Assembly: GCA_963978905.1 (NCBI GenBank)
Contig: OZ022257.1
Location: 20,975,664 to 21,039,663, forward strand
DNA: 64,000 bases
Source: Trichostrongylus colubriformis
Lineage: Eukaryota > Nematoda > Chromadorea > Rhabditida > Trichostrongylidae
Reading direction: 5' to 3'
The notes under the pieces were generated by a model. The model was not told the origin of the DNA, made no database searches, and worked only from the letters and a program-made list of their open reading frames with translations. Below are positions 5,233-61,400 of the stretch, piece by piece. How positions within the stretch are numbered: position 1 is the stretch's first letter; the number at the start of each line of letters is the position of its first letter. Both the position numbers and the translations under genes were made by a program.

Positions 5233-5303
5233 GATCCGAACAGAAGAAAAGCAAAGAGCAGTGAGTGCAGCTACAGCCTTTCTTTCTTCGTTGTAATTGC
5301 AAG

Positions 5304-8300
5304 ATGAGTTCGCTGATCTCAACAAGACAAGGTATTTTAACACGAGCAGGAAATCGTTTGTCAGCGATTTTGAGAGCACAGTCTGGTCTGGTTGACTTGT
5401 CCCAAGAGGGACAAGACGTCAGGGAGTTTCAGAAACAGATTAAGAAGACAAAAGTAACAATGCTAGCCGAAATGGAAAAGGTTGAAGAAGCGATGGATAG
5501 GTACGCCGCAGCAGTCGACAACTTAGGAGAAACACCATCGAAACCGGACCTGCTCAATCGGACGGAAGAGCACATCAGCGAAGCACAAGAACTCTCAGAC
5601 GAGGCTCACAACTTTTTGAACAGGCTCATGGAACTCCAAGAAGATATGACGGGAATGGCAGAACAGAGGAACGCAACTTCAAGAGGACCTGAAGTCCCTC
5701 TCACTCCTATTCCAATACCCAAATTCAACGGCGACATATGGGAATGGGAGCCCTTTTGGCAAAGTTTCGAACGGAGCGTGCACTTGCGCAACATCGACGA
5801 CGTCTATAAACTAAACTATCTTCTTGACGCACTTCAAGGAGCAGCCAAAGAATCAGTGAAACATTTCCACGTCGCTGGTAGCACATATCCTCTAGTCATT
5901 GAACATCTGAAGAGGAAGTATGGAGACAAACAAGCACTGGTGGACCGACTCTTAAGCAAGCTACAATCGACCGAAGCTAGCAGTGACCATCTCAAAGACC
6001 AAGAAACGTTGTGCGAACAACTCACTTCCATCACGTCACAACTGGATCTCCACGAAGAGCACATTGACAACACATTCCTACAGAAACAACTGCTAGGAAA
6101 GTTCTCCGTGGACGTTCAAAGACAGGTTCTTCGACAAAAATCAAAGCTGCAATCAGAAGGAGCTTGGAACACAATGACGCTACTAAGAATTGCAAAAGAA
6201 TTTGTCGAAGCGGAGCTGAGAATCACAAGCCAAATAGAACGGCACATTGCTGACAGCGCTAGAATTCAAGCAACGAATGCGATAGAAGAAAAGAAACCTC
6301 CAATCAACAAAAAACCAACACAATACCAACCATCACCGTGTTTCTACTGCGCGAAAACAGGACATCCTGCAAAAAATTGCCCTGATGTTCCTTCGCTTGA
6401 GCAACGTCTCGAGATAATGAAGAAGCATAAACTTTGCCGTAACTGCGGACAAATGGACCATGCGGCAGCAAAATGTCCGAAAGGAGCCTGCAGAATGTGC
6501 GGGGTAATCGGACATCACACCTCCATTTGCAGAGCTCTGTTTCCACAAAACACCTCTTCTCACCCGGCTCACAACTTAAGGAAACAGAAAGTGAATCCTA
6601 CAGAAAACACCTCCACAAAGTTGGCAAATGTCAACACTATAGATTCCAACCAAGGTCATACCTCAGAAGAAGATACCGCACATCACACCAGCAACCAAAG
6701 CAACGGAATGGTTTTGGCAGGACAGGCGAAAGTACTCAACCCAGCTACGGGTGCACTTGAATCTGTCCACGTCATGCTCGATACGGGCGCTGATCGTTCG
6801 TTCATCAGCAACGCACTCGCCAGGAGATTGCACCTCAAAGATATTGAGTCCAGAATGCTCAATATCAACACATTCGGCTCACAGCAGCCTATGCAAAAAA
6901 CATGTGGTGTCACCACCCTCCAAATGTGGGACGCTAATGGTACACCACATGTGTTCACGGTCACAAGGATCGACACAATAACGGAGTCACTGCAACGGAA
7001 TCGCCTCAGCCTCGAGGATAAACGATTTCTCTGTGACAACGACCTGCAACTCTCCATAAGCCCAAACTTGTCAAGCATCCAACCACAAATTCTTCTGAGC
7101 TGCACCGACCTCTTTTCACTTCTGGATCATGGCATGGCGCCACATCACATACTTCCGTCGGGACTACGACTAATTTCTTCAAAACTCGGTTATTTGGTAG
7201 CAGGATACGACAGCAGCTCTACGCCAATTGAGGAGAGTGACAAGAAAACGACATTAAACCATGTGAATATAGAGGAGCCAGAAGAAACTACACAGTCGTG
7301 GGAAGACTTCTGCACGTTCGAGTCATCAGGAGTGGATGAATTCACAGGCCCGAAGACGGAAGAACGTCAAAGAATAGATCGCGCTATATGGAACGCATTT
7401 GAACAAACAATTGAAAGAAAGGAAGACGGTTACTACGTACGCTTCCCCTGGAGAAAAGATGCGGAACAACTACCAGATAACAAGAATATGGCTCTGCGTC
7501 GCCTACAAGCATCGATTACCAAGCTAAAGGCTACTCCTGAAATACTACGACAGTATCAGGAAACAATACAAACTCAATTAAACAATGATATTATCGAAGA
7601 AGTTGATGAGTGCCAAACTCCCGATGGAGACATTGTACACTACTTGCCTCATCGTGCGGTTATCACTCCACACAAGAATACAACCAAGTTGAGAATCGTA
7701 TATGATGCATCTGCCCATCTGAAGAATGCTCCATCTCTCAACGACGTACTCCATCGAGGACCCGTTATGCTGCCCAAGCTTTGGGACATCCTTCTTCGCT
7801 TCAGGATTGGAAATGTCGCCATTGCTAGCGATGTTGAGAAAGCCTTCTTACAAGTACGGCTCCACTTGAAAGACAGAGACGCAACTCGCTTTCTGTGGCT
7901 GAAAGACGTAGACCGACCGATTGTGCAAGACAACCTTATCACGTACCGCTTTAGTCGCGTCACCTTTGGACTGATATGTTCACCATTCCTCCTTGCTGGA
8001 ACAATCAAATATCATTTACAACATTATACGAAGAACCCCGAACTCGCTCGTGAAATCCAAGACAACACCTATGTGGACAATGTCGTGATGACAGCAAATT
8101 CCACGACAGAGGCAATCCATCTCTACAAGGAATCTAAAACCATATTCGAAGACATGAAGATGAATCTTCGAGAATTCATTTCCAACGATGTTGACCTCAA
8201 ACAACAAATAAGCAAGAAAGACCTAAGCGAAACCACCACTCAAAAAATCTTGGGAATACTGTGGAATTCGGAGGAAGACAAGCTAATCCTCTCCTTCAAG

Positions 8301-11222
8301 TATCCTCCAAAAGAAAAAATAACAAAGCGATCAGTTTCTGAACAGATAGCTTCCATCTATGATCCACTTGGATGGATGACACCAATTACGCTTCATGGAA
8401 AACGATTCCTGCAGCATCTGTGGAAATGCGATTACAGTTGGGACGAAGTTCTGTCTCAAGAACATCAACAACAATGGATTAGAATTGTACAAGAAGTAAA
8501 TGGCTTTCAACACAAGCTCAACAGACGAGTCACGCAAATCAACGAAAAGGTGAAACTAGTAGTTTTCTCAGATGCGAGCAACATCAGTATGGCTTCATGT
8601 GCATACATTACATCAAACAATGGATCAACTCTGGTAGCAGGAAAATCCAAATTACCGTCAGTGAAAGAAAGACCCACGATCCCGAAAATGGAACTCAACG
8701 CCCTGACGATGGCAGTCCGATTGATGTATTCTATATATGACGCGGTGAAAGAACGCTTAAGAATTCAGGAAGTAGCTATCCTGACAGATTCAGAGATTGT
8801 CCTCAACTGGATATCATCAAGTTCATTGGACCCATCAACCGGCGTGTTAGTAAGAAATCGAGTCCGCGAGATTCAACGGATCGTCTCTCAAGTTCTTCCT
8901 CCTGTTATGTTCGGCTATGTAACAACCGCGGATAACCCAGCTGATTGTGCGACCAGAGGAGTGAACAGAGCATACTTCGAGAACCATTTGTGGTGGACTG
9001 GACCGTCTTACATTTCGCACCCAGTAGAACAATGGCCTCAAAAGTGCAGGATTTTCAATCTACCATCGAACAACGAGAATTTTCACATTCTAGCTGCCGG
9101 AACAACTGACAACATCTCTGAACTGCTGGATTGGAAGCGGCATAACAATCTTCAAAAAGGCCAAAGAGTGGTAGCATACGTGTTACGTTTCATCAAGACA
9201 TTACTCAGCCATGTGAAGGACAGTCTCAAAAACAAAGTAGAAAGCGGCATCCCCGAAATTCGATATGCAGAATCACTCGAATACATAACCGCCAAAGAAA
9301 TGGAAACGGCTTTGAGAACTTTACTTCGGAATCACCAGAAAGTTCATCTTACCACAGAAAGGCAAGCGGTTTTGAAGCAGCTGAAATTGAAAGAAGACGA
9401 ACATGGAATCCTACGATGTCAGGGACGGCTAGGAAATTCCAACCTATCTTCTGATACTAAACACCCCTATATCGTCGCCACTAAAACTGATCTCGCTCGG
9501 TTAATTGTGGAAAAGGCCCACACATCACTACATTGCGGAGTAGCACACACCATGGTGAATGTGAGACAACAATTTTGGATACCGAAACTGAGACAGATGG
9601 TTCGATCAGTAATATCACGATGTATACCATGTCAGAAGATGAACAACCTCCCGTATCGATATCCGGAAATGGACGACCTGCCGAAGCAACGAGTATGCAG
9701 AACACGACCCTTCGAGCACACAGGAATCGACTACTTTGGACCTCTTTCAATAAAAAGAAACGACGAGCAGGCGAAAGCATACGGTATAATCTTGACGTGC
9801 ACAACGACACGACTCATTCATTTGGAACAAGTACCAGACATGAGCACAAACCATTTACTGATGGCATTGCGCAGATTCTTTGCTCGACGCGGAATCCCAT
9901 CTAGCATAACATCTGACAACGGATCCAGTTTCCTATTAGCGGAACAAATTCTTCGTGATCTCATCCTACCCAAGACGAGTGATGTTTCTTTCATGCAGTC
10001 AATTGCAACAAAAGGAATTGTTTGGAAAACAATCACGCCATATGCTCCGTGGCAGGGAGGTCTTTATGAGCGTATGATTAAATCCATCAAGGACAGTCTC
10101 TACAAAGTCATGCAACGAAGAGTTCCGGATGAGAAGACTCTTGAAACCTTCTTGATAGAGATCGAAAGTATCATCAATAGCAGACCCCTAACCTATCAAG
10201 AAGAGAAATGGGATGAAACACCGGCGCTACGTCCGATAGACTTCATTCAACGTGATATGATCATAACATACCCATACGATACCATTGAAATGGATGAATC
10301 AGACCCAGATTATTTTCCAACTGGTGGAATCGTGATGCAAACCAGACAACAGGCAGAAGAAGCGCTGAAGACAAGCCATCAGTTGATAGAACAATTCTGG
10401 AAAATTTGGAATCAACAGTACCTGACCGCCTTGCGAGAATCACACAAACTTCACATCAATGATAAACGCAGTACTCCGAAAACACCGTCAGTGGGAGAAG
10501 TGGTGCTGATAACCGAACCCCTGTTACCAAGAAACACGTGGAGAATGGGTAGAATCACAAAGATTCACTACTCTCACAACGATGTCATCAGGGACGTAGA
10601 GCTTCGAATGCCAAATGGACGTACAACTCACAAACCAGTGAACTTGCTCATCCCTTTGGAACTAGGAGACACTAGCTCACCGAAGCAAGAAGATACAAGT
10701 ACAACTACATCCCGAAGGTACAATCTACGTTCCCGCCCACACGAAAAAGACACCCATATAACGAATGCATACTGTACAAAAAGTTCCGTTGACCGCACCC
10801 ACCCTTCTACCACTGTCACATCCCCGCCAGGAATGACAAGCTCTCAACCTCAGACCCACCATCCGTTCACCCTCCGAACCGTTACCACCCAACGCCCTCC
10901 AGTGCAAACCCACAGAACGTCTCTTGAAACTGAAATACTGCCCCTATTTCCGCAAATTACCGACCAAGAAGCAACCACCCAAGTTCCCCGGGAGAATACT
11001 CTACACCAACAAACAACTGCAGCAACCACAACATCAAGAGTAGTATCGAAGAAGGAAACCGCCTACCAGCCTGGCATTGACAGCAACGACAAGCGATGGC
11101 ATCCAATGGAAATAGAAGAAGACAGAAGCGAAAAAGACAACAATCACACTGTAGTGGCGGGGGAGTGTAGAGATTCCTCTACAACCATCTCCCATATAAC
11201 TGCTCATTACAATGAACATTGA
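5304..11222 (+). CDS. BEL/Pao gag-pol polyprotein
   Basis: This is a single uninterrupted polyprotein of 1972 residues that drives copying and integration of the element. The frame can be opened at a GTG at 5265, but the ATG at 5304 (MSSLISTRQG) looks like the natural start. In order: a gag region of DUF1759 type (about 120-330); three zinc knuckles (cysteines from 346, 378 and 396); an aspartic protease with DTGAD at 493; reverse transcriptase with YVDN at 923-926; a Pao-type RNase H with its aspartate at about 1090; an HHCC integrase zinc finger (about 1408-1450); an integrase core with D1476, D1538 and E1589; and a DUF5641-like region (about 1655-1760). The tail is rich in Thr, Ser and Pro. 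All catalytic residues are present with no stop or frameshift. The stop codon lies inside the 3' LTR, so the last 19 residues are LTR-encoded. Confidence 0.95.
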   Translation: MSSLISTRQGILTRAGNRLSAILRAQSGLVDLSQEGQDVREFQKQIKKTKVTMLAEMEKVEEAMDRYAAAVDNLGETPSKPDLLNRTEEHISEAQELSDEAHNFLNRLMELQEDMTGMAEQRNATSRGPEVPLTPIPIPKFNGDIWEWEPFWQSFERSVHLRNIDDVYKLNYLLDALQGAAKESVKHFHVAGSTYPLVIEHLKRKYGDKQALVDRLLSKLQSTEASSDHLKDQETLCEQLTSITSQLDLHEEHIDNTFLQKQLLGKFSVDVQRQVLRQKSKLQSEGAWNTMTLLRIAKEFVEAELRITSQIERHIADSARIQATNAIEEKKPPINKKPTQYQPSPCFYCAKTGHPAKNCPDVPSLEQRLEIMKKHKLCRNCGQMDHAAAKCPKGACRMCGVIGHHTSICRALFPQNTSSHPAHNLRKQKVNPTENTSTKLANVNTIDSNQGHTSEEDTAHHTSNQSNGMVLAGQAKVLNPATGALESVHVMLDTGADRSFISNALARRLHLKDIESRMLNINTFGSQQPMQKTCGVTTLQMWDANGTPHVFTVTRIDTITESLQRNRLSLEDKRFLCDNDLQLSISPNLSSIQPQILLSCTDLFSLLDHGMAPHHILPSGLRLISSKLGYLVAGYDSSSTPIEESDKKTTLNHVNIEEPEETTQSWEDFCTFESSGVDEFTGPKTEERQRIDRAIWNAFEQTIERKEDGYYVRFPWRKDAEQLPDNKNMALRRLQASITKLKATPEILRQYQETIQTQLNNDIIEEVDECQTPDGDIVHYLPHRAVITPHKNTTKLRIVYDASAHLKNAPSLNDVLHRGPVMLPKLWDILLRFRIGNVAIASDVEKAFLQVRLHLKDRDATRFLWLKDVDRPIVQDNLITYRFSRVTFGLICSPFLLAGTIKYHLQHYTKNPELAREIQDNTYVDNVVMTANSTTEAIHLYKESKTIFEDMKMNLREFISNDVDLKQQISKKDLSETTTQKILGILWNSEEDKLILSFKYPPKEKITKRSVSEQIASIYDPLGWMTPITLHGKRFLQHLWKCDYSWDEVLSQEHQQQWIRIVQEVNGFQHKLNRRVTQINEKVKLVVFSDASNISMASCAYITSNNGSTLVAGKSKLPSVKERPTIPKMELNALTMAVRLMYSIYDAVKERLRIQEVAILTDSEIVLNWISSSSLDPSTGVLVRNRVREIQRIVSQVLPPVMFGYVTTADNPADCATRGVNRAYFENHLWWTGPSYISHPVEQWPQKCRIFNLPSNNENFHILAAGTTDNISELLDWKRHNNLQKGQRVVAYVLRFIKTLLSHVKDSLKNKVESGIPEIRYAESLEYITAKEMETALRTLLRNHQKVHLTTERQAVLKQLKLKEDEHGILRCQGRLGNSNLSSDTKHPYIVATKTDLARLIVEKAHTSLHCGVAHTMVNVRQQFWIPKLRQMVRSVISRCIPCQKMNNLPYRYPEMDDLPKQRVCRTRPFEHTGIDYFGPLSIKRNDEQAKAYGIILTCTTTRLIHLEQVPDMSTNHLLMALRRFFARRGIPSSITSDNGSSFLLAEQILRDLILPKTSDVSFMQSIATKGIVWKTITPYAPWQGGLYERMIKSIKDSLYKVMQRRVPDEKTLETFLIEIESIINSRPLTYQEEKWDETPALRPIDFIQRDMIITYPYDTIEMDESDPDYFPTGGIVMQTRQQAEEALKTSHQLIEQFWKIWNQQYLTALRESHKLHINDKRSTPKTPSVGEVVLITEPLLPRNTWRMGRITKIHYSHNDVIRDVELRMPNGRTTHKPVNLLIPLELGDTSSPKQEDTSTTTSRRYNLRSRPHEKDTHITNAYCTKSSVDRTHPSTTVTSPPGMTSSQPQTHHPFTLRTVTTQRPPVQTHRTSLETEILPLFPQITDQEATTQVPRENTLHQQTTAATTTSRVVSKKETAYQPGIDSNDKRWHPMEIEEDRSEKDNNHTVVAGECRDSSTTISHITAHYNEH
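11153..11165 (+). promoter_or_regulatory. polypurine tract of the BEL/Pao element
   Basis: A purine-dominated run (GGCGGGGGAG core) abuts the 3' LTR, the expected site for plus-strand priming. It lies inside the coding frame. Confidence 0.75.
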
Positions 11223-14300: not shown

Positions 14301-14834
14301 CTGAGAAACATGTTTTCTTAAAACGAACATCCCATTTTAGAAGAGGCGATGTGTGACGAAATTCTCATTGAATCAGTCGGACTGGCGGTCAAATACTGGT
14401 CAATCACGCTCGGGGCCGCGTGTGGCTGTCCGGAGGGGACGGCTCGACTAGGAGATATGTACCTACTTAGAACCCGGTCCACTGACGACAGGTCCCATTC
14501 AAAGACAATAATAGGGACTGTTGGGGTATGAAAACAAAGCCAAAGTGTTCAGTACCACAAAAATGAAGAAAAAACGGAGCAAAACGGCTAAAAACTCGGG
14601 AAGTATTGGATTCTCTCCAGCGTTGATTCCGTTGGAGTTTGGCCACGATAAAAAAAGGGCGAGCCACGTTAAAACGGTTGGCAGCTGTTAAAAGGGTCTT
14701 CGAAGCCTTTAGAGCTCAGAGATGCTTCCTTCATCGTGAGTTTACCAACATACAAATTTCTGAGAGCCTAACTGTTATGTGGGTGACTCACTGAGAGCTC
14801 TCATTACCCACATTACCCCTCCAACCGGGGTGTA
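11392..14834. other. intergenic, no gene recognised
   Basis: Open frames of 107 codons (12101-12424, plus), 124 codons (12349-12723, plus) and 129 codons (13116-13505, minus) occur, but none has a recognisable domain or convincing splice context. Confidence 0.45.
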
Positions 14835-15044
14835 GGTTGGGACACACGAATCTAGGCCGTGACCCTGTAACAGCTTGTGGCCTTTGACCTAAGCCTTAAA
14901 TAATTCAGACAATTTGTTCATGTAAATCGTGTCCTCCTTGCAAGTCTGTTCCGTTGCATAGTCAAATTGTCTGAATTATTCATGTCACAGGGCAAAGGCC
15001 ACAGGCTGTCACAGGGTCATGGCCTAGATTCGTGTGTCCCAACC
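14835..15044. mobile_element. 210-bp MITE with about 80-bp terminal inverted repeats
   Basis: The left end, starting GGTTGGGACACACGAATC, matches the reverse complement of the right end for about 80 bases with few mismatches, leaving a spacer of about 45 bases. A 13-base direct repeat (ACCCCTCCAACCG) lies just outside both ends, at about 14814 and 15048. It has no coding capacity. Confidence 0.8.
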
Positions 15045-16283
15045 GTCACCCCTCCAACCGTCTTCACCTGCTCCAATAACTTGTTTACTTTAATCTATCT
15101 ATCCGTCATTACCTCCTATAATCTATCTCTATCGGGTGGGGGTCACGACGTCGAACTTTCGCGCGGCATGAGAATGTTCAGAACGGAAATGACACTTTCC
15201 TTCACCTTCCTACGAAAATGGTTTACATAATTCAAATTCAGATAACCGGTAGATGAATCACGCTAAAAGGAAATGTCCCAGTATTTGAGCTGACGTAGTC
15301 AAGTAACCAGTAACTATTAGGTGGTAAGGAAAGTTCTGGCCACTTTTTCGCGTTCACAAGATAAATTCAAGTATCAGAGCGCGTCAACATGAATCAGCTG
15401 ACATCTTGTGCTCCTTAGATGGACAAAAAGTTGCTCTTTCTTGTTTTCTTTGGAATGCCTCAAGAATTTCGAATCATTAGGGGAATTTCGAAGTACCGCG
15501 AAAATGACACTTTTATGATAACTTCACTTCACTAGTTCAGTCGAGTCGCAGCAAAGGAAACCACAAATGAGAATACTGCAAAAGGAGGGGGTGAAGCAAT
15601 GGATGGAACATTTTGCCCCTGGCTTGAGAAGTGCAGAAATGAGGATGAATCGCTCGAATTTTCAATTGATCAAGTCGTTTTAACTAAAACGGCAGAAAGC
15701 GATGAGCGTCCATACTTGCAGAGGATATCCACAAGTATTGGCCCAAACAGACAACTTAGATGACCACCTCGAGTAGCCTTGATCTGAAAAAATCTGAAAA
15801 AAATGGATGCCGCTGGACCCCTCACGGCTGTTGTGCGCAAGCGTATTTTTCACAAATCCTCTTCCAGTAAGTGAAGCAGCTGCAGGCTGAAGCCCTCACT
15901 TGTTCATCGTATTCACCACATCTAGCGCTTACCAAGCCCCACTTTCCCAAACATCTGGACAGCTCCTTCAGTAGCAGTGTGTTCAGAAACAGTGACGATT
16001 TAGAGTCGACTTTTTTCATTTCGCGCAATATAAATCATCAGCCCTCATCAAATTGAGATATATAGGTATGCATAATGTTGCCAAGGGTGTAGCAAATCGA
16101 ATGGTGCTTATTCTGTGAGAAAAGATGCACTCTGAGCCGAGTTATGATCCCCGGAAATTGAAATTTCAAAAATTGACTGAAACTTTCCTTTTAACCTGAT
16201 AAATTGGACCCTATCGGTATTTCCCTATTTCTGCGCATGCTCCGCCCATAACAGGCGCCACATATCAGGTAACCGAAAAAGTT
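15045..16283. other. intergenic with one dispersed repeat
   Basis: No gene recognised. 16096-16196 is the reverse complement of 27645-27742 over about 95 bases, a dispersed repeat in opposite orientation. Confidence 0.5.
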
Positions 16284-17969: not shown

Positions 17970-18085
17970 AAATAGGGTCACCCTACAGGCAGGACCAGGA
18001 GGTGCGAGGTGAGATGCAATGACCTAGAGTAGTCTTGTAATTATTTCACCGTAAATCTACTGTGTACTTTCCGGACTAAAGGTGC
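17970..18085 (+). repeat. dispersed repeat, 'tagggtcaccct' family
   Basis: This shares about 100 bases with 58068-58165 in the same orientation and with 55421-55530 in inverted orientation; a more diverged match lies near 53670-53740. The last three are in introns of the astacin gene. Confidence 0.7.
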
Positions 18086-30157: not shown

Positions 30158-31435
30158 TTAGGTTGTTGCAAAATTAATTTTGGTTTCAAGGTATGTATAA
30201 ATAAGTAGATTTTTTACCCTGAACTATTCCATCCCAAGGAACGCCAGGCATATGGTGGGTTTTCTCTGCTCTTTCAGAAACTTCTATGAATGTCGCTCTA
30301 AGTTTTCCAGCCGGCCTTTTCCAGGGCTGCGTATGATCATGAACCGACGCGACTATCGAGTCATCATGCTTTATGAGTTTAAATTGGAACACTCCGCAGC
30401 GGAGGCAGCTCGTAATCTCAGCAGTGTTTATGGGACGAATTGTCCTTGCGAAGGAACAGTGGAGCTCTGGTTTAAAAAATTTGCTTCTGGCGATTTTGAT
30501 CTCAAAGAGAAGTCGGGTCGCGGCCGCAGGTCATCGCTTAATGATCAAGATTTAAGGAGAGCCGTCGAAGCAAATTCGGAGACGAATACTCGTACGTTAG
30601 CAGAAGACCTAAGCGTACATTACTCTACAGTGGCCAGACATTTGCTGACAATCGGCAAGGTGAAGAAGATGTCGAAGTGGGTGCCTCATGACCTGACCGA
30701 TGAGCAGCGTCTGGCACGTTTCGACACCTGCTCTAATCTCCTAGTTCGCCATAAAAAGGAGCCATTTGTAAACCGTATTATAACTGTAGATGAAAAATGG
30801 GCTCTTTATGAAAACAGGAAGCGGGGATTAGTCTGGATAGATAAGGATGCTCCTCCAAAAACTTTTCCTAAACCCGACCTTCGCCCGAAAAAGGTTGTGA
30901 TTACTGTGTGGTGGTGTTGTAAAGGTGTAATCCATTACAGTTTCTTGCAACCTGGTCAGCCAGTCACAGCAGAGTCTTACTGTTGTGATCTGGAGCAAAT
31001 GTATAGAAAGTTGCAAAAATTGTGGCCAGCGGTGGTGAATAGAGGAGGGCCGATCCTGTTGCAGGACAACGCAAGGCCACACACCTCACAAATCACTCGG
31101 CAAAAATTGACCCGCTTGGGTATAGAAGTTCTCCCTCACCCAGCGTATTCTCCCGACCTTTCCCCAACAGACTATCACTTTTTTCGAGCCCTCAATTCTC
31201 ATCTGCGTCAGAAACAATTTACTAATTTAGACGATGTTGAATGTGCCTTCCTTGACTTCGTTGATTCTCGTGATAGTAGTTTTTATAGTGAAGGCTTAGA
31301 TTTATTGCCTGTTCGTTGGCAAAAGTGTGTAGATTCTGATGGTTTTTACTTCGATTAATAAACTTGTGTTTAAGCTGAGTTATAGTAGTTTGAAGTATGC
31401 GGTCCATTTCCGAAATTGATTTTGCAACAACCTAA
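30158..31435 (+). mobile_element. intact mariner transposon, HsMar1/cecropia-like
   Basis: Terminal inverted repeats start TTAGGTTGTTGCAAAATTAA (30158) and TTAGGTTGTTGCAAAATCAA (from 31435 backwards). The right flank is TA; the left flank is TT, so one target-site base appears changed. At 1278 bp with a single full-length transposase ORF it has the standard mariner layout. It abuts a LINE remnant. Confidence 0.93.
30339..31358 (+). CDS. mariner transposase
   Basis: A 339-residue DDE transposase that would cut and re-insert the element at TA sites. The frame is open from 30252, but the start at 30339 (MNRRDYRVIM) fits mariner N-termini; an ATG two codons earlier (30333) is equally possible. 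Two helix-turn-helix segments span about 1-110, followed by the linker WVPHDL. The D,D34D triad is complete: D151 in TVDEKW, D243 in LLQDNARPH, and D278 in SPTDYHFF, exactly 34 residues after D243. YSPDL is also present. No stop or frameshift is seen, so it could be functional. The sequence most resembles the HsMar1/cecropia group; hookworms are known to carry such an element (bandit), but identity was not tested. Confidence 0.93.
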   Translation: MNRRDYRVIMLYEFKLEHSAAEAARNLSSVYGTNCPCEGTVELWFKKFASGDFDLKEKSGRGRRSSLNDQDLRRAVEANSETNTRTLAEDLSVHYSTVARHLLTIGKVKKMSKWVPHDLTDEQRLARFDTCSNLLVRHKKEPFVNRIITVDEKWALYENRKRGLVWIDKDAPPKTFPKPDLRPKKVVITVWWCCKGVIHYSFLQPGQPVTAESYCCDLEQMYRKLQKLWPAVVNRGGPILLQDNARPHTSQITRQKLTRLGIEVLPHPAYSPDLSPTDYHFFRALNSHLRQKQFTNLDDVECAFLDFVDSRDSSFYSEGLDLLPVRWQKCVDSDGFYFD

Positions 31436-36390: not shown

Positions 36391-36466
36391 AGGCCGCTTC
36401 CATACTTTGCGCACCGACGCCGTCACGCGCGTGACGGCGTCGGTGCGCAAAGTATGGAAGCGGCCT
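36391..36466. repeat. 76-bp perfect palindrome without spacer
   Basis: The 38 bases from 36391 (AGGCCGCTTCCATACTTTGC...) are followed immediately by their exact reverse complement, centred between 36428 and 36429. Every base pairs. The sequence just left of it resembles part of the GC-rich repeat at 18186-18345. Confidence 0.95.
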
Positions 36467-37079
36467 TATCACCCGCGAAGTGGCGCCACCCTCCCGTGCC
36501 GTACCAGAAACGTGCAAAGGACGCTACTACGACTTCGTCCCTGTGGCAGACGATGGCGGATCTTTTTCATGTAGAAGGGAGGGAATATGATTCTTAGCTT
36601 GAGCCCAGGGAGGAAAATTAGCTTCGACATGGGTGAAGCAAGTTCCACGTGAAAGAGATCTTTCTAACGATAAATAGCTAACCTCTCATCCTCCTTGCAA
36701 GTTATGCCCTTACGTGTTTGTGAGCAATTATGCTTGATACGTTACTAATGAGTCACAGAACGTGAGGTTGCGTTCCATCTCTCTCTCCCCTTCCGTCCCG
36801 AGCCACATAGACCCACCTTTTCAGTTCTCCACCGCCGTATTACCGCGATGAAAAAAGGAACCGTCATTAATGTCTTGTCCATTCACATGTTGCAGGGGAA
36901 AGGAAAAGCGAAATCGTGCTTGAGTAAAAAGAGTCGAATCGTTGAAGTGATCCAGGCGAACGTTTTTGGGAATAGCTTTTAATCTGAAATGTCTCAATTT
37001 GGCCTGCCTCGAGAAATGCCCATTGGAGAGCATACGTGCATCTGTGACTACTGAAAACAGACGTCCTCATCCTCTATCT

Positions 37080-40000
37080 CTTACACGATCTCTTCAACTT
37101 GCTCTACTCGACGAGTCCCCATAGAATTATAATTTGTGAAAATTGCTCCACCACGGACTATGCTAGAACTATGTCGCTTCGGTTGAGATCATCGCTTAGA
37201 ATAGTATTATTATTGGTATGGCTGACAGAGTTCCCTTCTGATGGATTCGGCCCCTATTGAAGAACGAGGTTTTCAATTACTGTAAAATTCAATCACACTC
37301 ATTTGATCTGCTGCAGTGCCATCTTACAGTGCATCTTCATGAGAACTGGTAATTTTGGAACCATTTCCTTATAGATGACACATGTATTTTCTCCCATAAA
37401 AATGCTGGTACTGGTTTGTCACCATCACCTTCAACTTTTCCATGAGTGCCTTCAAATGTTGTGGTGTTTGTTGCAGCGCCTTCATTACTTTATCCTGCAT
37501 GCTACTCAGCATGTCACGATTTCGAAAAACGTACTCTTTGTGAGCAAGAGCGACGTAAAAGCAAGCAAAATACATGTCTTTAAAACAGCAGAAAAAAACG
37601 ACGCTTTTACTCATGGTACCTTTTTGTATCTCACGATCGCTGCATCCTTGAATTTTCCGCCGATGGACTTTGCTACAGAAACCATTTTTTTCACAAGCCT
37701 TCTCTGGACAATCCATCGGCGGCAACGACCAAAAGTAAGTGAGCTAAGGAATATTAACCATATTGTGTGATGTGAAAATCATCACTATAGCATTAATGAA
37801 CTGATTTGAAAGAAGGGGTTATTCCATGAGAATACATTTGCAGCAAAAAGGGAGAGATATTTACTAAAATAGCGAAACATTTCTTGACCAGCTGGCTCGA
37901 ACGTTGTAGAAATTCATACAGTTATCATGAATCTCTCATCTTGAGAAAAGTGCTGCTTCAGAAGCCAAACGGCATTCTCGAGATCTCTGTGAAACATGGC
38001 AACCAGTAGTTGCGATGAAACGATTATATTAGGAACGGTGTGCTGCATCGCTTTACCCTGCATTTTATAACCACTGAATCCCTTTACATACATAAATCAA
38101 GCGCTGAAGAGACAGTGAAACACCGCCATGCTGCCAAAAACAAACTGCAAGGTTCGATTTTTCCTGATCTTCTTCTGGGATGAGGATTGTCGGCATTTGC
38201 AGCAAAAAGGGAGAGATATTTACTAAAATAGCGAAACATTTCTTGACCAGCTGGCTCGAACGTTGTAGAAATTCATACAGTTATCATGAATCTCTCATCT
38301 TGAGAAAAGTGCTGCTTCAGAAGCCAAACGGCATTCTCGAGATCTCTGTGAAACATGGCAACCAGTAGTTGCGATGAAACGATTATATTAGGAACGGTGT
38401 GCTGCATCGCTTTACCCTGCATTTTATAACCACTGAATCCCTTTACATACATAAATCAAGCGCTGAAGAGACAGTGAAACACCGCCATGCTGCCAAAAAC
38501 AAACTGCAAGGTTCGATTTTTCCTGATCTTCTTCTGGGATGAGGATTGTCGGCATTTGCAGCAAAAAGGGAGAGATATTTACTAAAATAGCGAAACATTT
38601 CTTGACCAGCTGGCTCGAACGTTGTAGAAATTCATACAGTTATCATGAATCTCTCATCTTGAGAAAAGTGCTGCTTCAGAAGCCAAACGGCATTCTCGAG
38701 ATCTCTGTGAAACATGGCAACCAGTAGTTGCGATGAAACGATTATATTAGGAACGGTGTGCTGCATCGCTTTACCCTGCATTTTATAACCACTGAATCCC
38801 TTTACATACATAAATCAAGCGCTGAAGAGACAGTGAAACACCGCCATGCTGCCAAAAACAAACTGCAAGGTTCGATTTTTCCTGATCTTCTTCTGGGATG
38901 AGGATTGTCGGCATTTGCAGCAAAAAGGGAGAGATATTTACTAAAATAGCGAAACATTTAGGGAGAGATATTTACTAAAATAGCGAAACATTTCTTGACC
39001 AGCTGGCTCGAACGTTGTAGAAATTCATACAGTTATCATGAATCTCTCATCTTGAGAAAAGTGCTGCTTCAGAAGCCAAACGGCATTCTCGAGATCTCTG
39101 TGAAACATGGCAACCAGTAGTTGCGATGAAACGATTATATTAGGAACGGTGTGCTGCATCGCTTTACCCTGCATTTTATAACCACTGAATCCCTTTACAT
39201 ACATAAATCAAGCGCTGAAGAGACAGTGAAACACCGCCATGCTGCCAAAAACAAACTGCAAGGTTCGATTTTTCCTGATCTTCTTCTGGGATGAGGATTG
39301 TCGGCATTTGCAGCAAAAAGGGAGAGATATTTACTAAAATAGCGAAACATTTCTTGACCAGCTGGCTCGAACGTTGTAGAAATTCATACAGTTATCATGA
39401 ATCTCTCATCTTGAGAAAAGTGCTGCTTCAGAAGCCAAACGGCATTCTCGAGATCTCTGTGAAACATGGCAACCAGTAGTTGCGATGAAACGATTATATT
39501 AGGAACGGTGTGCTGCATCGCTTTACCCTGCATTTTATAACCACTGAATCCCTTTACATACATAAATCAAGCGCTGAAGAGACAGTGAAACACCGCCATG
39601 CTGCCAAAAACAAACTGCAAGGTTCGATTTTTCCTGATCTTCTTCTGGGATGAGGATTGTCGGCATTTGCAGCAAAAAGGGAGAGATATTTACTAAAATA
39701 GCGAAACATTTCTTGACCAGCTGGCTCGAACGTTGTAGAAATTCATACAGTTATCATGAATCTCTCATCTTGAGAAAAGTGCTGCTTCAGAAGCCAAACG
39801 GCATTCTCGAGATCTCTGTGAAACATGGCAACCAGTAGTTGCGATGAAACGATTATATTAGGAACGGTGTGCTGCATCGCTTTACCCTGCATTTTATAAC
39901 CACTGAATCCCTTTACATACATAAATCAAGCGCTGAAGAGACAGTGAAACACCGCCATGCTGCCAAAAACAAACTGCAAGGTTCGATTTTTCCTGATCTT

Positions 40001-40545
40001 CTTCTGGGATGAGGATTGTCGGCTAGAGCGTTTGCAAAGGGGTACATGCTCACATTTCCGAAAAACCTTTCCAGTTGCACTTTCGGGCTACTTAAAAATG
40101 CGCAGCTATCGTTTGAGACACATTACACACGACTATTGATATGCTATATTAAAATAGTGCAATTTTGAGTATAGTGGCAGATAAGTGAGGAGTGCGAGGT
40201 AATAGATATTGCCTTGATTTGCCATATTAGGCACTCGAAATTTTAGTTACAGGAGTTGGAAGTGCAATATGGACCTATCAACTCAGTGCCAGCTGTAAAG
40301 TGGCATTGTAGCAGATCAAATGAGTGTGATTGAATTTCACAGAAACTGAAAACATCGTTCTTCAATGGGGATCGAATCCAGCCGAAGGATGAATCCATCA
40401 GTGAAATCAATAACAATACTGATCTCAGCGAAAATCTATACCGAAACGACATAGTTCCAACCGAGTAGGGCCATTTTCTTTACTTATAATCTTACGGAGA
40501 CTCGTTGGAGAGAGCAAGCTCAAGAGATTGCTGTGACAAATTCGA
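37080..40545. mobile_element. inverted-repeat element enclosing a tandem satellite array
   Basis: The left arm (about 37080-37340) and right arm (about 40285-40545) are inverted, diverged copies. Matching blocks include GAGTCCCCATAGAATTATAA/GAGTCTCCGTAAGATTATAA, GAACTATGTCG, TGATGGATTC and a run of about 30 bases around CAATCACACTCATTTGATCTG. Between them lie about 0.5 kb of unrecognised sequence, a six-copy 359-bp tandem array, and about 0.26 kb of further sequence. No transposase is present. No target-site duplication was identified. Confidence 0.7.
37835..40022. repeat. tandem array, six copies of a 359-bp unit
   Basis: Unit starts are 37835, 38194, 38553, 38912, 39305 and 39664. The spacing is exactly 359 except for the fourth unit, which is 393 because of an internal 34-bp duplication (second copy about 38960-38993). 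By eye the units are otherwise identical. Four units contain the same 62-codon ORF (38180, 38539, 39291, 39650); the 34-bp insertion breaks it in unit four, and unit one lacks its start. Because 359 is not a multiple of three, the array as a whole is not a coding repeat. Confidence 0.97.
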
Positions 40546-40855: not shown

Positions 40856-41347
40856 TTAAAGGCATATTCCAGGATTATTTGGATATCACATCTCCTGCCG
40901 TGGATGGATAGTTTGACCCAAGCCACGTAGACTGTACCTTTACCGAGGTGTGGGGGTCAGTTTCTGGAGCGTGCAGAGCCAAAGAATCAGCGCAACAGCT
41001 CGGCCCCGCCCACCCCAGCGGGGGTCTGTCTTTACTCTTCGACTCTTATCTTTGACATAGGTAGACCAGCTACGTGGTCAAGATAATGAAACTGGCAGTC
41101 AAGCAATCGTCTCGTGAAGTAAACCCACTACTGAGTGACCTGACCCCACACTAAGCACCGGAATACTTGCAACACACCCCCGACTGGGGTGGGCGGGGCC
41201 GAGCTGTTGCGCTGGATTCTTTGGCTCTGCACGCTCCAGGAACTGACCCTCACGCCTCGGTAAAGGTACAGTCTGCGTGTCTTGGGTCGAAATATCCATC
41301 CACGGCAGGAGATGTGATATCCCAATAATCCTGGAATATGCCTTTAA
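40856..41347. mobile_element. palindromic MITE, copy 1, about 160-bp inverted repeats
   Basis: It runs from TTAAAGGC (40856) to GCCTTTAA (41347), 492 bp. The arms pair over about 160 bases, including AGCGCAACAGCTCGGCC-type sequence. The unique centre (about 41030-41190) is present in inverted orientation in copy 2 at 57483-57945, as expected if the two copies sit in opposite directions. Confidence 0.85.
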
Positions 41348-44464: not shown

Positions 44465-45514
44465 ATGCAGAGCCATTCGAGTACCAGCTATCCAGTATCT
44501 GCCACACATCACCGCAGACAGCAACTGGAGATACAGTTCAACTTGCCGAATACTTTTCGAGGTATTTTTTTGCTTACGAACTACCTTACACATCTTTTCT
44601 CCTCTACTTGTCAAAAAATGACTGGCGAACATAGAAAGAGAGTGCTAGTCGCTTATATTCTATAACCGCAGCGTCTTCAACAAAATCGGGATTTCGGAAG
44701 ATACACCGTATTTACGGTCGTTGCGCGTTGGTATGATGAACTGCCTGCGAAATGGCTTTGCCAAGTACTATTGTACACAGTTTCGGAGTTTATTTGGTAC
44801 AGGGCAGTTTTGAAAGGTTGAAATACTAAGCGATACGATAGATGGTCAGAGAGTGGTAATTCATCGACCAAACATACAAACGTTCTGAGTGTCATTGATA
44901 AAAGCCAGATACGTGACGTTATCAAGGTGTGACCACCGACGACCACCTGCCTCACCTAAGTATGAACACGAAATTTCAGAGAAAACAGACGGCACGATAT
45001 GCTTCCGTACGAGAGCGAAAGTGAGGCGGTCCCGCATTACCTTCACTCCACAACAGGTTGCTGTAACACTGCTATGCATTAACTCCTCTTGTTATCGTCA
45101 TCAACTTTCAGCTGCATGTACTTGAGTCAGTATTCCTGCTTACACCTTATCCAAACGCCACGGCACGTGAAGAGCTCGCTTCTCGATTATTTCTCACTGA
45201 AGCAAGAATTCAGGTTGTTGCCGAGAAAGTCCTCATTATTTGTGGCACTGTTACTCCCTAATTTTCAGGTGTGGTTCCAAAATCGTCGCGCTAAATTGCG
45301 CAAAAACTCGCAGACATCAAGACAGGGATGTAAATGGCTCTTTCCATCCTTTCTCTACTCACAGCCGTACAACCATACAATGGCAGGTGTTGTAGATGAT
45401 ACAGCATCCAACGACAGTAGTGACGCTGAATTACCTTTAGATTTATCGATGAAATGTACAAATAATGCCAATAGTTGTAATAAGGGATGCGGTACCAAAA
45501 TAGAGCACCGCTAG
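44465..45514 (+). CDS. paired-like homeobox transcription factor with PLDLS tail
   Basis: A nuclear DNA-binding regulator. Four exons join in consistent phase: 44465-44561, 44980-45056, 45112-45213 and 45269-45514, giving 173 residues. The homeodomain occupies about 47-106. It opens with RRSRITFTPQQ, continues with TPYPN and REELASRLFLTEARIQ, and ends in the recognition helix VWFQNRRAKLRK. Gln at homeodomain position 50 makes it a Q50 paired-like type; no paired domain is present. Introns 2 and 3 are 55 bp each and lie inside the homeodomain. After a short Asp/Ser-rich segment, PLDLS (148-152) matches the PxDLS motif bound by the corepressor CtBP, so a repressor role is inferred. I could not assign an orthologue. 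A 35-bp intron-like stretch in the last exon is not used in this model because removing it causes an early stop. Confidence 0.87.
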
Positions 45515-55400: not shown

Positions 55401-58400
55401 ACTTACGGGGGTTGTGCACATTTAGTCCAGAAAGTATATGGTAGTACACGGTAAAATGATTACAGAACTACCGTTGGTCACTTGGCACCTCACCTCGCAC
55501 CTTTTAGCCGTGCCTGTAGGGTAACCTGTTTCATTGCTCCCACCAGCTGTTGACTTTTAAGATGCATAGTAATGCACCTGTGCAGGGATAAAATATGAAA
55601 GTGTATAGGTAAAGAAGTTCAGTTAGTTTGCAGTAACACTTCATTGATACAAACCAATCTCTCAAATTTATCATCAGTGACCCATGATCGCGCCAGGCAT
55701 GTATGCCTTGAAGACAGTGCTAGGGATGATGTGGGTGATAGGAAATCCCAAAAGAAGTCATTTAGTGAAAAACTACGGCTCTGAAAGGCCTATGCATGGC
55801 GAAATCTCCCGCGGAAGACGCCCTCTTGAGCTGTGGCGGAGGCGGCCTCGTCAGGACAAGCCGCCTTGGTTTGAGACAGCCCGCCTCCAGGCGACGTGAT
55901 TAGGGGTTGGTCACGGTGCGGTTGGTCAAGGAGATCGGCAGGATTGAAAGTATCGCAGCGCGCCTTCTCACCTTTAGCTTGAAGCTCAGCACATGAAAAT
56001 AGATGCTGTCGCATTTCCGAACATCCCTTCATGTTTACGTCTTGGTAATGCCAATGGAAAACCCATGCGGACTACCCGCCTCTTGACGGAAAGGTCGTCC
56101 GCGCCTAGAACCAACGGTGGGAAGAAGTCCTATTTCTCGGGTTTTTGGCCATTTCCATCCGTCTTTCCTCCACTGTTCCGTTACTAGGCATCTCGGCTTT
56201 CATATTCACTACTTCTCGCACTTTTCGTCCGATTCCCCTAAAGCTGCCTTTGAAGTATTCTCTTCTCAGATAGTTGATACAGTCAGCGGTAAATAAACAT
56301 TTCATTGCTTTTAGGGGAGTTGATTCATAGAGTAGACCCCTCACACCTGTACTTGACACAATATTCTCTTTTTAACCTAATGCCTTGAGAAAGGTCATAC
56401 AAGGGGTTTTCATACAGGTTCGATGGGAATAATCAATTCCTTTTCATAGATTTGGTTTAGTATTCCAAAAGAGAGGAGAAATTCTTCCAGGCTTGCTGTG
56501 CAACTTTGCTCACTGATATTAATCTACTCCATAACCCTAGCATCCTACTTAGGTTACCTGTGTACGGATTCTACAACACCTCCCTTGTTGCTTAACCCAT
56601 TGTTCCTGGTTTTGAGCCTTTCCCTCTCGCATCTTACTATGCCTTATGCAAGTGGCACATCCTGTTGAATGTGGTCTGAGCATCATCACAAAACCCATTT
56701 TCCACATCATTGACTTCTGTTTCACATCCAACTCCAGCCTCCTTACCATCACTAACCCCTTAGCAACCTAAATCTTCAGTTCCACTTTCTACTCTCCTTC
56801 CAGCATTAAGAAATCGGACACAGGAAACTGGGTTCTCTGTTGCTCATATATTTATGTTGTATTCGCTGAATAAGTGCCGCACGCAAAATTTCACGCGAAA
56901 AGGTGAAAATCTTGCTGAGATACCGCTCCTCAAAGTGATGGCTGAGGGGGCGGGGCCTCAAAGTGAATGCTCGCCCTGTCGTCCGCTGAGGTCGAAGATG
57001 CATAATGAGTGCAGAAGGCTACGTTGACAGTTCCACTCTTCGTCTTCCACCGTGGCGGACGGCGGAACGGGCATTTACTTTGGGAATCTACCGCGCTTCG
57101 GCCACCTCTCTGATGAGCTGTATCTCAGCCTCATTTTCACATTTTATCGTGGAACTTTGCGTGCGGCCCTTAATAAATAAATACAACATAAATATATGGG
57201 TAACAGAGAAACTTATTTTTTCGTGCACGACACCTTTGACCTCTCAGTATCCCTCAGCTCCTGCTCCAACTTTTATTTCTACTAGTCACTCGCCAAACTT
57301 CTGTTCCCTATGTGTTATCCCTGCCTTTCCAGCCCCCCCCCCCTCCCACCCGCTTCATCACGCCCTATGAGTTAGTTTCCCTTGAGGAGAGTGAGCTGTT
57401 TATTTACCCCTAATGTATTGATTAGCAGACAACGAGAATGTTTTTAGGCACAAATGTGTGGCGCGATCATTGGTCACTGATATTAAAGGCACATTCCAGG
57501 ATTATGGGGATATCACATCTCCTGCCGTGAATGGTTAGTTCGACCCAAGTCACGTAGGCTGTACCTTCACCGAGGCGTAGATGTCAGTTCCTGGAACGTG
57601 CAGAGCCAAGGAATCTAGCGCAACAGCTCGGCCTCGCCCATACCAGCCGGGGTGTGCTGCAAGTGTTCCGGTGCCTAGTGTGGGGTCAGGTCACTTAGTA
57701 GTGGGTTTACTTCACGAGGCGATTGGTTTACTGCCAATTTCAAGATCTTGGCTAGTAGTTGGTCTACCTATGTCAAAGATAAGAGTCGAAGACCTCCGGC
57801 TGGGGTGGACGGGGCCGAGCTGTTGCGCTAGATTCTTTGGCTCTGCACGCTCCAGGAAGTGACACTCACGCCTCGGTAAAGGTACAGCCTACGTGGCTTG
57901 GGTCGAACTATCCATCCACGAAAGGAAATGAGATATCCTGATAAACCGAAGTGTTATTGGGAATACGAATGAGCTTCTTTATCTTATACACACTTTCACC
58001 TTTTCCCCTTGTATATGTGCACTACCTGTTGCAGCTTAAAGGTCAACAGAGGGTTCAAGCAGTCAAATAGGGTCACCCTATAGGCACAAAGGTGCGAGGT
58101 GAGGTGCAATGTGACTTGCAATAGTCCTGTAATTATTTTGCCGTATACTTTATGGACTGAAGACATTCATTACTTTCAGGCACCAGCTGGACGACGGATC
58201 TACTACGAAGTGCCAACATTCAGATTCTCAAGCTCGAATCTGTGCAGTTACAATTTCTTAGAAATCAAGTACGCTGCCGATCCTCAGCGAGTTGGAGCGA
58301 GGTACAGGATAGCTTGAGTCACATCGTTTGAAAAACTGTTAAGGCGTTCACAAATAGAAATGTCGGGCGAAAGGCTTATGGAAGCAATATTCCCATGTCT

Positions 58401-61400
58401 GAATCTTGACAGTTTGAGAAATTCAGGTTCTGCAAAACACGGCCGCAAAATTCGTATTCTCAAAGCGACATCCTGGTAGTGATTTACAGAGGATCGACTG
58501 GCACTTCATTCACCCTGAACTATCGATTTGGTAGCGCATTCAATGGTTCACAATATACTTCTACGAATTCTCTGTGTTCAATTGTCGCTTCTTTCATTTT
58601 CTTGAAGATCCTCCTTCACCGGTTGTGACACCTCCTTCCTCATCAACAACTACTACTAGTACCACCATAACAACAACCACGCAATCAACTACTACAGCAA
58701 CAAGAACACCAACTACCTCACAAACTGGTAGGTAACGCCAAAAACGTTTTCCTGGACTTTCCGGAGCCATTGAAAGAAAACGAAGCTGTTCAGCACCTCC
58801 TCCAATCATCGACTCGAATGGATGCACTCCATGGAGCCGATGCACTGCAGAATGTGGAGGGTGCGGAACCACAACTAGAAGGTACTAAACAGGGTCCAAA
58901 TCCTTTCTTCAAAATTATTTTTCGGATCTGAGTATTGGCAAGGGTTTTCTTGCTCATGGGAGCCTTTGTTTACACTTTTCGCCCAACCCTAACACAAACT
59001 ATAAGATATGTAAATCGTCCATTGCCCATTAATAACTGATACGATAGCATAGAATTGGGCATGGTACATGTAGGGTACGGCGCGAGGTGTGGTAGAACCA
59101 AGAAGAAGCCTCTTTGAATTGACGAAACGCACGATTTATAACGTTTGACCAAATCATACAACAGTGTATGGTCGTGGCAGGAGGCCGCACGAAACTTGTA
59201 AAGAAGTTGTGGCGAAATGGCAAAAGCTATAGCCAAAATTTGCGCGGACTCCGGCCGCAATCATCATACGATGGTAGGAGTTTGACCATTATAAAAGGAG
59301 CGCGTTGCAGCAGTGCCGGCATTGTCGGCGTTGCGTGCCGCCGTTGACTACGGCGCAGGCGTCAATTGCCGTCGTTGACGCCAGTGCGACGAATTATGAA
59401 GGGGCATATTAGTAAATGATAGGCGGTATATTGTCTCAGACTGGACCATCGGCATAGCATCAGGTGAAGTCCATGTATGAAAAGGCTACTGGATCTGCTA
59501 TTAGCCCAAAACAAAAGAGCTAAATGAAATGGAAGCTGCCTGTCCAATGACTGACTTCCTCCTGAAAAGCTTGAGGGCAAAGAAATGACTGACTTCCTCC
59601 TGAAAAGCTTGAGGGCAAAGAACGAGATGGTGCAAGTTCATGAATCCGGAAAGTTCTCTGGACTACTTCAGCTCGCAACAGTGACGAGTACAGTCGTTAC
59701 TGGTGCCCACTATACTTTCGATGACCACCAGTGACCACAGGTAGCTATACTGTAAGAGCATTGAAAAATATAGAAACCGTCTCCGAACAGCGCTAGTCAC
59801 CTCACCTGAAGGGGTCATACAATACCGCTCACATTTTTTAAAAATCGACGGTGGACGACGGTTAAACGGTACAAACCGTCGCACCGTTATAACTCTGTTA
59901 AAATTGAATAAAATGGGGTAGAACTAGAAGCGTTAGATTTGTCTCGATGCGACGAATCCAACGACCTATGAGATGTTGAATTTTGATAATTAGGTCACCA
60001 GCTTCTAGATAAAAGCTGCAAAGTTTTTTTTACTCTTAGGCAGAACTCCGACTTTTTTCGGCTTACATTAACATGTTCATATGTTGCTCGCCCATGTTCT
60101 GCATGAACATCTTTTTTTAGTGAGCTATCTCCAAGTTTCAGGATACTTTTCAGCACCAAATCCCACGACATTTTCGAGAATTTTTGAGTTCATTTTGTCA
60201 GAATCGATGGACAAATTGGGAAGATAACTCACCTATCACGGGGTACTGGCTACGTACTGCAAGAATTACTTAGACTTCCGAATTACAGGCAGGCGCTTCT
60301 TCTGTGATGAAGCTTCAAACATCGGTAAACGGCGCACATTGACCGCTGAATATTTCCCTTTCCTTTCCTAAGATAACATTTTGATCAGTGAAAATCGCAT
60401 GAGGTATTCGAATATAGCATCCTACACCTCCAGAAAATGAAAGTGGCATTCAAACAATGCCCAGAATTATGAATTTAAAAAGAGTGTTAATTGCACATGA
60501 AAGTATGAATGTGGACGTACACTAATTAATTTCAAACGAAACTTATTATGATGTATTCAGTGTCAAAAATGCTGTTCATCGACGTAAAGATCATTTCACT
60601 GCGAGAGTTTTGAATTTTTGCCACTGTTTTCGTATTCTTTTCGAGCATTGTTGGCTCCGACGCCGCTCGCTGATCTTAGTTACTCTGTGGCGCTCTGCAC
60701 AGATGAGGTCAGAGTGCCCCGCGGTGTTACCACATCACATCAATGCACACTATTGACATTCAAAACCGATGTTTGAAGCTTCATCACAGAAAAAGCGCTT
60801 GCCTGTAATTCGGAAGTCAAGGTAATTCTTGCAGGACGTAGCCAGTACTTTGTGATAGGCGAGTTATCTTCTCAATTTGTCCATCGATTCTGACGAAATG
60901 AGCGTAAAAACTCTCGAAAATGTCGTGGAATTTGGTGCTGAAAAGTGTCCTGGAACTTGAAGAACTCACTACAAAAAATGATGTTTGTGCGGAACATGAG
61001 TGAGCAACAACTGGACATCTGAATGTAGGTCCAAAAAAGTCGGAGTTTTTACTGAGGGCAAAAAAAAATGAATCTTTGCAGCTTTCATCGAGAAGCTGAA
61101 AGAGAAGATGACCTATCAATAAAAATTAGACATATTATAGGTCGCTGGAGTCGTCGCATCGAGACGATTCCAAATCTTCTGATTTTTTCCCATTTTATTC
61201 CTTTTTAACGAAGTTATGAGTGCGACGGTTTGTGCCGTTTAATCCGTCGCCTGCCGTCGATTTTTCAAAAAATGTGAGCGGTATTGTACCAGGTAGCTTC
61301 GGAGAGATCGCAGACCGTCTGCACACCACGGCTTGATAGTAAGGTCGCTCGCTGTCACATGTACACCTCTTGAGTAATAGGTCTTTGCAACTCCTCCTAT

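Follow-up and report, generated by a model that had tools for sequence, protein, structure and literature searches.

A uniform 359-bp tandem array between diverged inverted arms in a nematode DNA sequence

Results

The locus at 37088-40528 of the window, by which we mean the whole 64-kb stretch of DNA that was analysed, consists of five blocks: a left arm, a left spacer, a tandem array, a right spacer and a right arm. The left inverted arm (37088-37329, plus strand, 242 bp) was delimited by local alignment to the reverse complement of the right arm (40293-40528, minus strand, 236 bp). This confirms the inverted arms of ~250 bp reported in the initial annotation, the arm ends lying 8 bp inside the start (37080) and 17 bp inside the end (40545) given there. 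The arms are 2963 bp apart, and the array is parted from them by two spacers absent from the initial annotation, one of 505 bp on the left (37330-37834), which is crossed by stop-to-stop frames of 124 aa on the minus strand and 131 aa on the plus strand, and one of 269 bp on the right (40024-40292). The left and right spacers have no detectable relation to each other (48 of 200 shuffles aligned equally well).

The array itself (37835-40022) places ~2.2 kb of head-to-tail units at one place in the window and is satellite-like in that respect. Six plus-strand units are present, as first described, but only five of them measure 359 bp: units 1 (37835-38193), 2 (38194-38552), 3 (38553-38911), 5 (39305-39663) and 6 (39664-40022), which are identical letter for letter. 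The extra length of unit 4 (38912-39304; 393 bp) comes from an exact tandem duplication of 34 bp, its bases 15-48 (38926-38959 and 38960-38993); the unit is otherwise free of substitutions. Base 40023, immediately after unit 6, equals the first base of the unit, giving a 1-bp overlap at the right break. A half-unit structure of the 359-bp unit was looked for and not found: at the best lag, 147, 113 of 359 positions match, a value reached by 198 of 300 shuffles. A satellite with the same period, 359 bp, exists in Drosophila.

The number and identity of the units may in part be products of assembly or polishing, in which case the true array would have another length or be less uniform, and an imperfect join of two partial arrays would explain the 34-bp duplication; we consider this distinctly unlikely, and it is compatible with either of the origins of the arms discussed below. 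The duplication falls near the middle of the array, with three whole units and the first 48 bp of unit 4 ahead of it, much as an untrimmed contig overlap would, and among exact tandem duplications of period 20-79 bp the window offers only two more, a GACA microsatellite and one of 38 bp (59546-59622). There is also a precedent in Nippostrongylus brasiliensis, a strongylid. The earlier reference genome of that species is reported to have compacted long tandem arrays, a single read spanning 21 kb of a 171-bp unit (PMC5765664). Against an assembly product, the window contains no N bases, a simple contig join would not turn one unit into six, and the 34-bp duplication may also be a genuine slip. 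The exact 38-bp tandem duplication at 59546-59622 is close in size to that in unit 4, and either could be an assembly join or a slip. Six is therefore given here as the assembled number of units, the true number being uncertain.

The two arms align over 245 columns, with 190 identities, 43 mismatches and 12 gap columns (78% identity counting gaps, 82% without them), and their score was equalled by none of 200 dinucleotide shuffles. Their K2P divergence is 0.214 (i.e., about 0.21 per site), whereas no substitution is found across 6 x 359 bp of array, which by the rule of three bounds the divergence of the units from a common unit at about 0.14%. The initial annotation was thus right that the arms are diverged while the units are identical, and the younger age that it assigned to the array follows from the same comparison (no substitution in 6 x 359 bp against a K2P of 0.21): unless the identity of the units was made by assembly, the array is far younger than the arms.

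The annotation left it open whether the array had expanded or been homogenised. The edges are abrupt, the match to a further unit ending after 0 bp at the left edge and after 1 bp at the right, and no decayed unit was detected either at the left edge (compared with the unit end; 179 of 200 shuffles equally good) or at the right edge (compared with the unit start; 23 of 200). When old, arrays kept uniform by unequal exchange are reported often to end in decayed units, with exceptions where the junction formed recently or where homogenisation does not take place, as in arrays of insufficient length (PMC5139131). Because a decayed unit is found at neither edge, an old array that was homogenised fits somewhat less well than recent expansion, and recent local duplication, rather than long homogenisation, is the simplest reading of the array.

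The unit was compared with the arms and spacers eight times, and no relation was detectable (shuffles equally good in 44 to 200 of 200 cases). For the comparisons with both arms on both strands the range was 44 to 155 of 200, and an origin of the 359-bp unit from the arms is unsupported, its alignments being no better than those of shuffles.

The paired inverted arms agree with the initial proposal that a transposon carries the array, but no target-site duplication was found at them, and no second copy of either arm or unit elsewhere in the 64-kb window. Long inverted repeats stand at both ends of the locus, as in foldback and long-TIR elements. No direct repeat of at least 5 bp adjoins both outer arm ends (37088 and 40528); the scan covered direct repeats of at least 5 bp, and old ones may have decayed. 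The nearest 7-mer pair flanking both arms (37042 and 40531) leaves a gap of 39 bp before the left arm, and random comparisons of equal size yield a 7-mer in 283 of 2000 cases. Conservation between the arms is highest at their inner ends (36 of 40 positions, compared with 31 of 40 at the outer ends), which does not favour transposase-bound tips, since selection would have kept the outer ones.

To put the arms in context, the whole window was searched for inverted repeats with a minimum length of 40 nt. The search returned 22 pairs, many of them joining distant copies. With a palindrome at 36391 included, seven inverted-repeat elements are counted besides the present one, their loops measuring 0 to 438 bp; they show that such elements are common in this window. 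Arm identity in three of the seven is 76 to 82% (163/207, 129/170 and 425/517), so diverged arms are ordinary here. None of the seven contains an array (Tandem Repeats Finder, score 50 or more), and it is the array, not the diverged arms, that is the unusual feature of the locus. Judged by eye, short repeats are present at both ends in three of the seven and are absent or unjudgeable in the other four. Because only three of seven neighbours show end repeats, the missing end duplication at 37088-40528 weighs little either way.

Several of these elements are described here in their own right. At 36391-36466 lies a loopless palindrome of 76 bp in which all 38 of 38 pairs match; each end has TTA, one base of which is common to each arm. 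It resembles a palindromic mini-element, and through its hairpin it matches microRNA families of Rfam below threshold (best E 5e-6). One inverted-repeat element is represented by two opposite copies, 40856-41347 and 57483-57947, which are 88-90% alike over three matched pieces; the former has TTAA at both ends, a palindromic motif that may belong to the arms. A short element at 14827-15052 (79 of 90 columns identical) has a 12-bp direct repeat at its ends, as judged by eye. The large element at 59829-61277 has arms of about 500 bp (425/517 columns), a loop of 438 bp and no array, and its arms seem to extend past the stretch that was compared.

The window also bears on a less likely but serious alternative, namely that the arms are two opposite insertions of a ~240-bp repeat, or an inverted segmental duplication, with the array between them by chance. 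Two other opposite repeat pairs, 1.7 and 2.6 kb apart, are nested in 55443-58149: 55667-55708 with 57446-57487 (1737 bp apart, 83% identical) and 55443-55509 with 58083-58149 (2573 bp apart, 81%). The outer repeat of this nest also matches 17976-18017, which marks it as a dispersed repeat. Oppositely oriented pairs of related dispersed repeats less than 3 kb apart thus do occur in this window, and an inverted pair 3 kb apart is not necessarily one element. The same nested pairs enclose, wholly or partly, the elements at 56833-57210 and 57483-57947.

At the locus itself, separate insertions would account for the better-kept inner ends and for the lack of a flanking duplication around the pair as a whole, and short direct repeats occur near the two ends of either arm (left, a 7-mer at 37079 and 37322; right, a 5-mer at 40292 and 40530). 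However, matches of 7 bp are no rarity (they appear in 187 of 2000 comparisons, each 46 x 46 bp, of randomly drawn window sequence), the inner 7-mer of the left arm is within the aligned arm and the inner 5-mer of the right mostly so, such that both may be arm sequence, and no single arm copy occurs elsewhere in the window. The assignment of the arms to the two ends of one transposon is no more than plausible.

We also considered whether the unit is a functional repeated gene, specifying a small RNA or forming an exon array, a reading that we hold to be extremely improbable. On its minus strand each unit contains a 59-codon ATG-to-stop frame and two copies of TGTTTCA, the array accounting for 12 of the 31 occurrences in the window; this heptamer is close to the core motif of C. 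elegans piRNA promoters. However, the full 8-mer CTGTTTCA is not found in the array, none of the six reading frames is open through it, Pfam gave no match for three unit frames, and Rfam gave none in the array, or anywhere within 37088-40528, at E up to 1. Folding of the unit plus strand, with DNA parameters, was no better than that of shuffles (z 0.47).

For the left spacer, the 124-aa minus-strand frame had one protein candidate, with no match at E up to 1, and only a sub-cut-off result in Pfam; the 131-aa plus-strand frame had no Pfam match. Over the five frames submitted to Pfam there was nothing above the cut-off and one sub-threshold match (E 0.1). A coding origin of spacer or unit was accordingly set aside (no protein match for the 124-aa and 59-aa frames, none of the five frames above the Pfam cut-off), as was an RNA gene, which gained no support from Rfam or folding. 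The arms were also examined as tRNA-like SINEs; the right arm has one near-match to the B-box consensus (40369), the left arm a weaker one as judged by eye, and ARAGORN, run with the bacterial code, found no tRNA gene.

Recognisable coding sequence is present elsewhere in the window. At 5265-11222 lies an uninterrupted 1985-aa Pao/BEL-type retrotransposon frame with Peptidase_A17, reverse transcriptase and integrase domains, and at 30336-31355 an open mariner transposase frame, whose closest listed protein is 96% identical over the whole length; the best match named to an organism, among 120 listed of 621, is an Ancylostoma ceylanicum protein at 65%. Mariners can pass between species, so that a strongylid nematode as the source of the DNA would be a guess from these matches. 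A frame at 45083-45514, ~4.5 kb from the right arm, carries a partial homeodomain end (WFQNRRAK) below the Pfam cut-off and is perhaps an exon of a homeobox gene.

Discussion

Our tentative reading, which we would put just short of an even chance, is that the locus is an old non-autonomous inverted-repeat element of foldback-like or long-TIR type, now immobile, within which a segment of 359 bp has recently undergone tandem duplication. The arm alignment, unmatched by any of 200 shuffles, the units without substitution and the lack of a decayed edge unit all support an old element with a recent duplication. Several observations count against a single element: no target-site duplication adjoins the arms, the inner ends are the best kept, the 2963 bp between the arms are unlike the loops of the seven others, there is no second copy in the 64-kb window, and unit identity and number are assembled values.

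If the locus is an old element with a young array, the first duplication of the 359-bp segment could have arisen by end joining or replication slip at a near-blunt junction, either of which fits parental break points that overlap by 1 bp. Both array edges have direct repeats of 6-7 bp nearby (37813/40037, 37834/40052 and 37837/40031), with none at the observed junction, so that a homology-driven first step is also possible. Growth to the six assembled units may then have proceeded by unequal exchange between perfect repeats or, alternatively, through a small circle that reinserted. Both unequal exchange and a circle intermediate are discussed for the Tetris element, in which two alleles differ by one unit (PMC4079207). 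The inverted arms may have promoted fork stalling or breakage between them, although the scheme would not require it. Nothing points to a role of the array for the element or its host.

The initial annotation saw in the locus a way of dispersing tandem repeats, with the inverted-repeat element as a mobile carrier of the 359-bp array that seeds satellites elsewhere in the genome. We find this very unlikely, even though comparable elements exist in Tetris (PMC4079207), the Cg_HINE Helentrons (PMC7492417) and the Helitron-borne satellites of C. elegans (PMC4595182), and the long arrays of N. brasiliensis are reported to include transposon-associated repeats (PMC5765664). The 64 kb hold no second arm or unit; the arms, if they were identical at insertion, are too diverged for recent movement; a young array in an old relic implies growth in place; and the 59-aa unit frame has no protein candidate. 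A 31-bp probe from the unit also had no exact match in prokaryote genome contigs or viral contigs, which carries little weight for a nematode. We would give as little credence to a broader reading, a nematode family of long-inverted-repeat elements in which the internal 359-bp segment repeatedly forms arrays of varying unit number, some of them outgrowing the element; were it true, the locus would be a satellite nursery at an early stage, with a unit unrelated to the transposon ends.

Tandem repeats associated with transposable elements, inverted-repeat ones included, have already been published, and a single locus is an example of them, with no new principle. They include tandem repeats born from transposons in general (PMC5857280) and from Helitrons in nematodes (PMC9071541), and many satellites are reported in holocentric nematodes (PMC3634726). 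Among titles and abstract openings returned by a literature search for nematode and hookworm cases, we found no strongylid long-inverted-repeat element with an internal array. If the array is real at its assembled length, its interest would lie in its youth: six substitution-free units, sharp edges and one near-blunt junction suggest a young array in which the first step of satellite birth is readable.

In the Helentron and Helitron cases the elements belong to other classes, and the resemblance to the present locus is that of an array within an element. Helitrons are not generally defined by long inverted arms. The non-autonomous Cg_HINE Helentrons of Crassostrea gigas have a central satellite-like array flanked by element sequence and copies genome-wide (PMC7492417), whereas here the array lies between ~240-bp inverted arms and there is one copy in the window. 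The C. elegans Helitron-borne satellites are likewise nematode satellites inside DNA transposons, with units shorter than the present one; that study was limited to units of <200 bases, longer ones being very few in Caenorhabditis (PMC4595182). A further case, to judge by its title, is the MITE-borne Xstir of Xenopus (Hikosaka and Kawahara 2004), which places tandem repeats on an inverted-repeat element and is one of several MITE-associated tandem repeats listed in a review (PMC6947457).

The nearest known system in kind is Tetris, a foldback transposon of Drosophila virilis whose tandem units are known as TIR-220; like the present locus, it is an inverted-repeat element without recognised coding capacity that holds tandem units of a few hundred base pairs (PMC4079207). 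Its units measure about 220 bp rather than 359 bp, and its tandem repeats lie within the inverted repeats and have 37 bp in common with the outer domain (PMC4079207), whereas the present array lies between the arms, has nothing detectable in common with them and so lacks the relation of tandem units to inverted repeats that is typical of Tetris. Tetris is further described with 8-10 bp target duplications, several copies and alleles differing by one unit (PMC4079207), compared with no adjoining duplication of at least 5 bp at the present locus. The locus is best read as a recent local duplication in an old transposon relic, of a kind already known.
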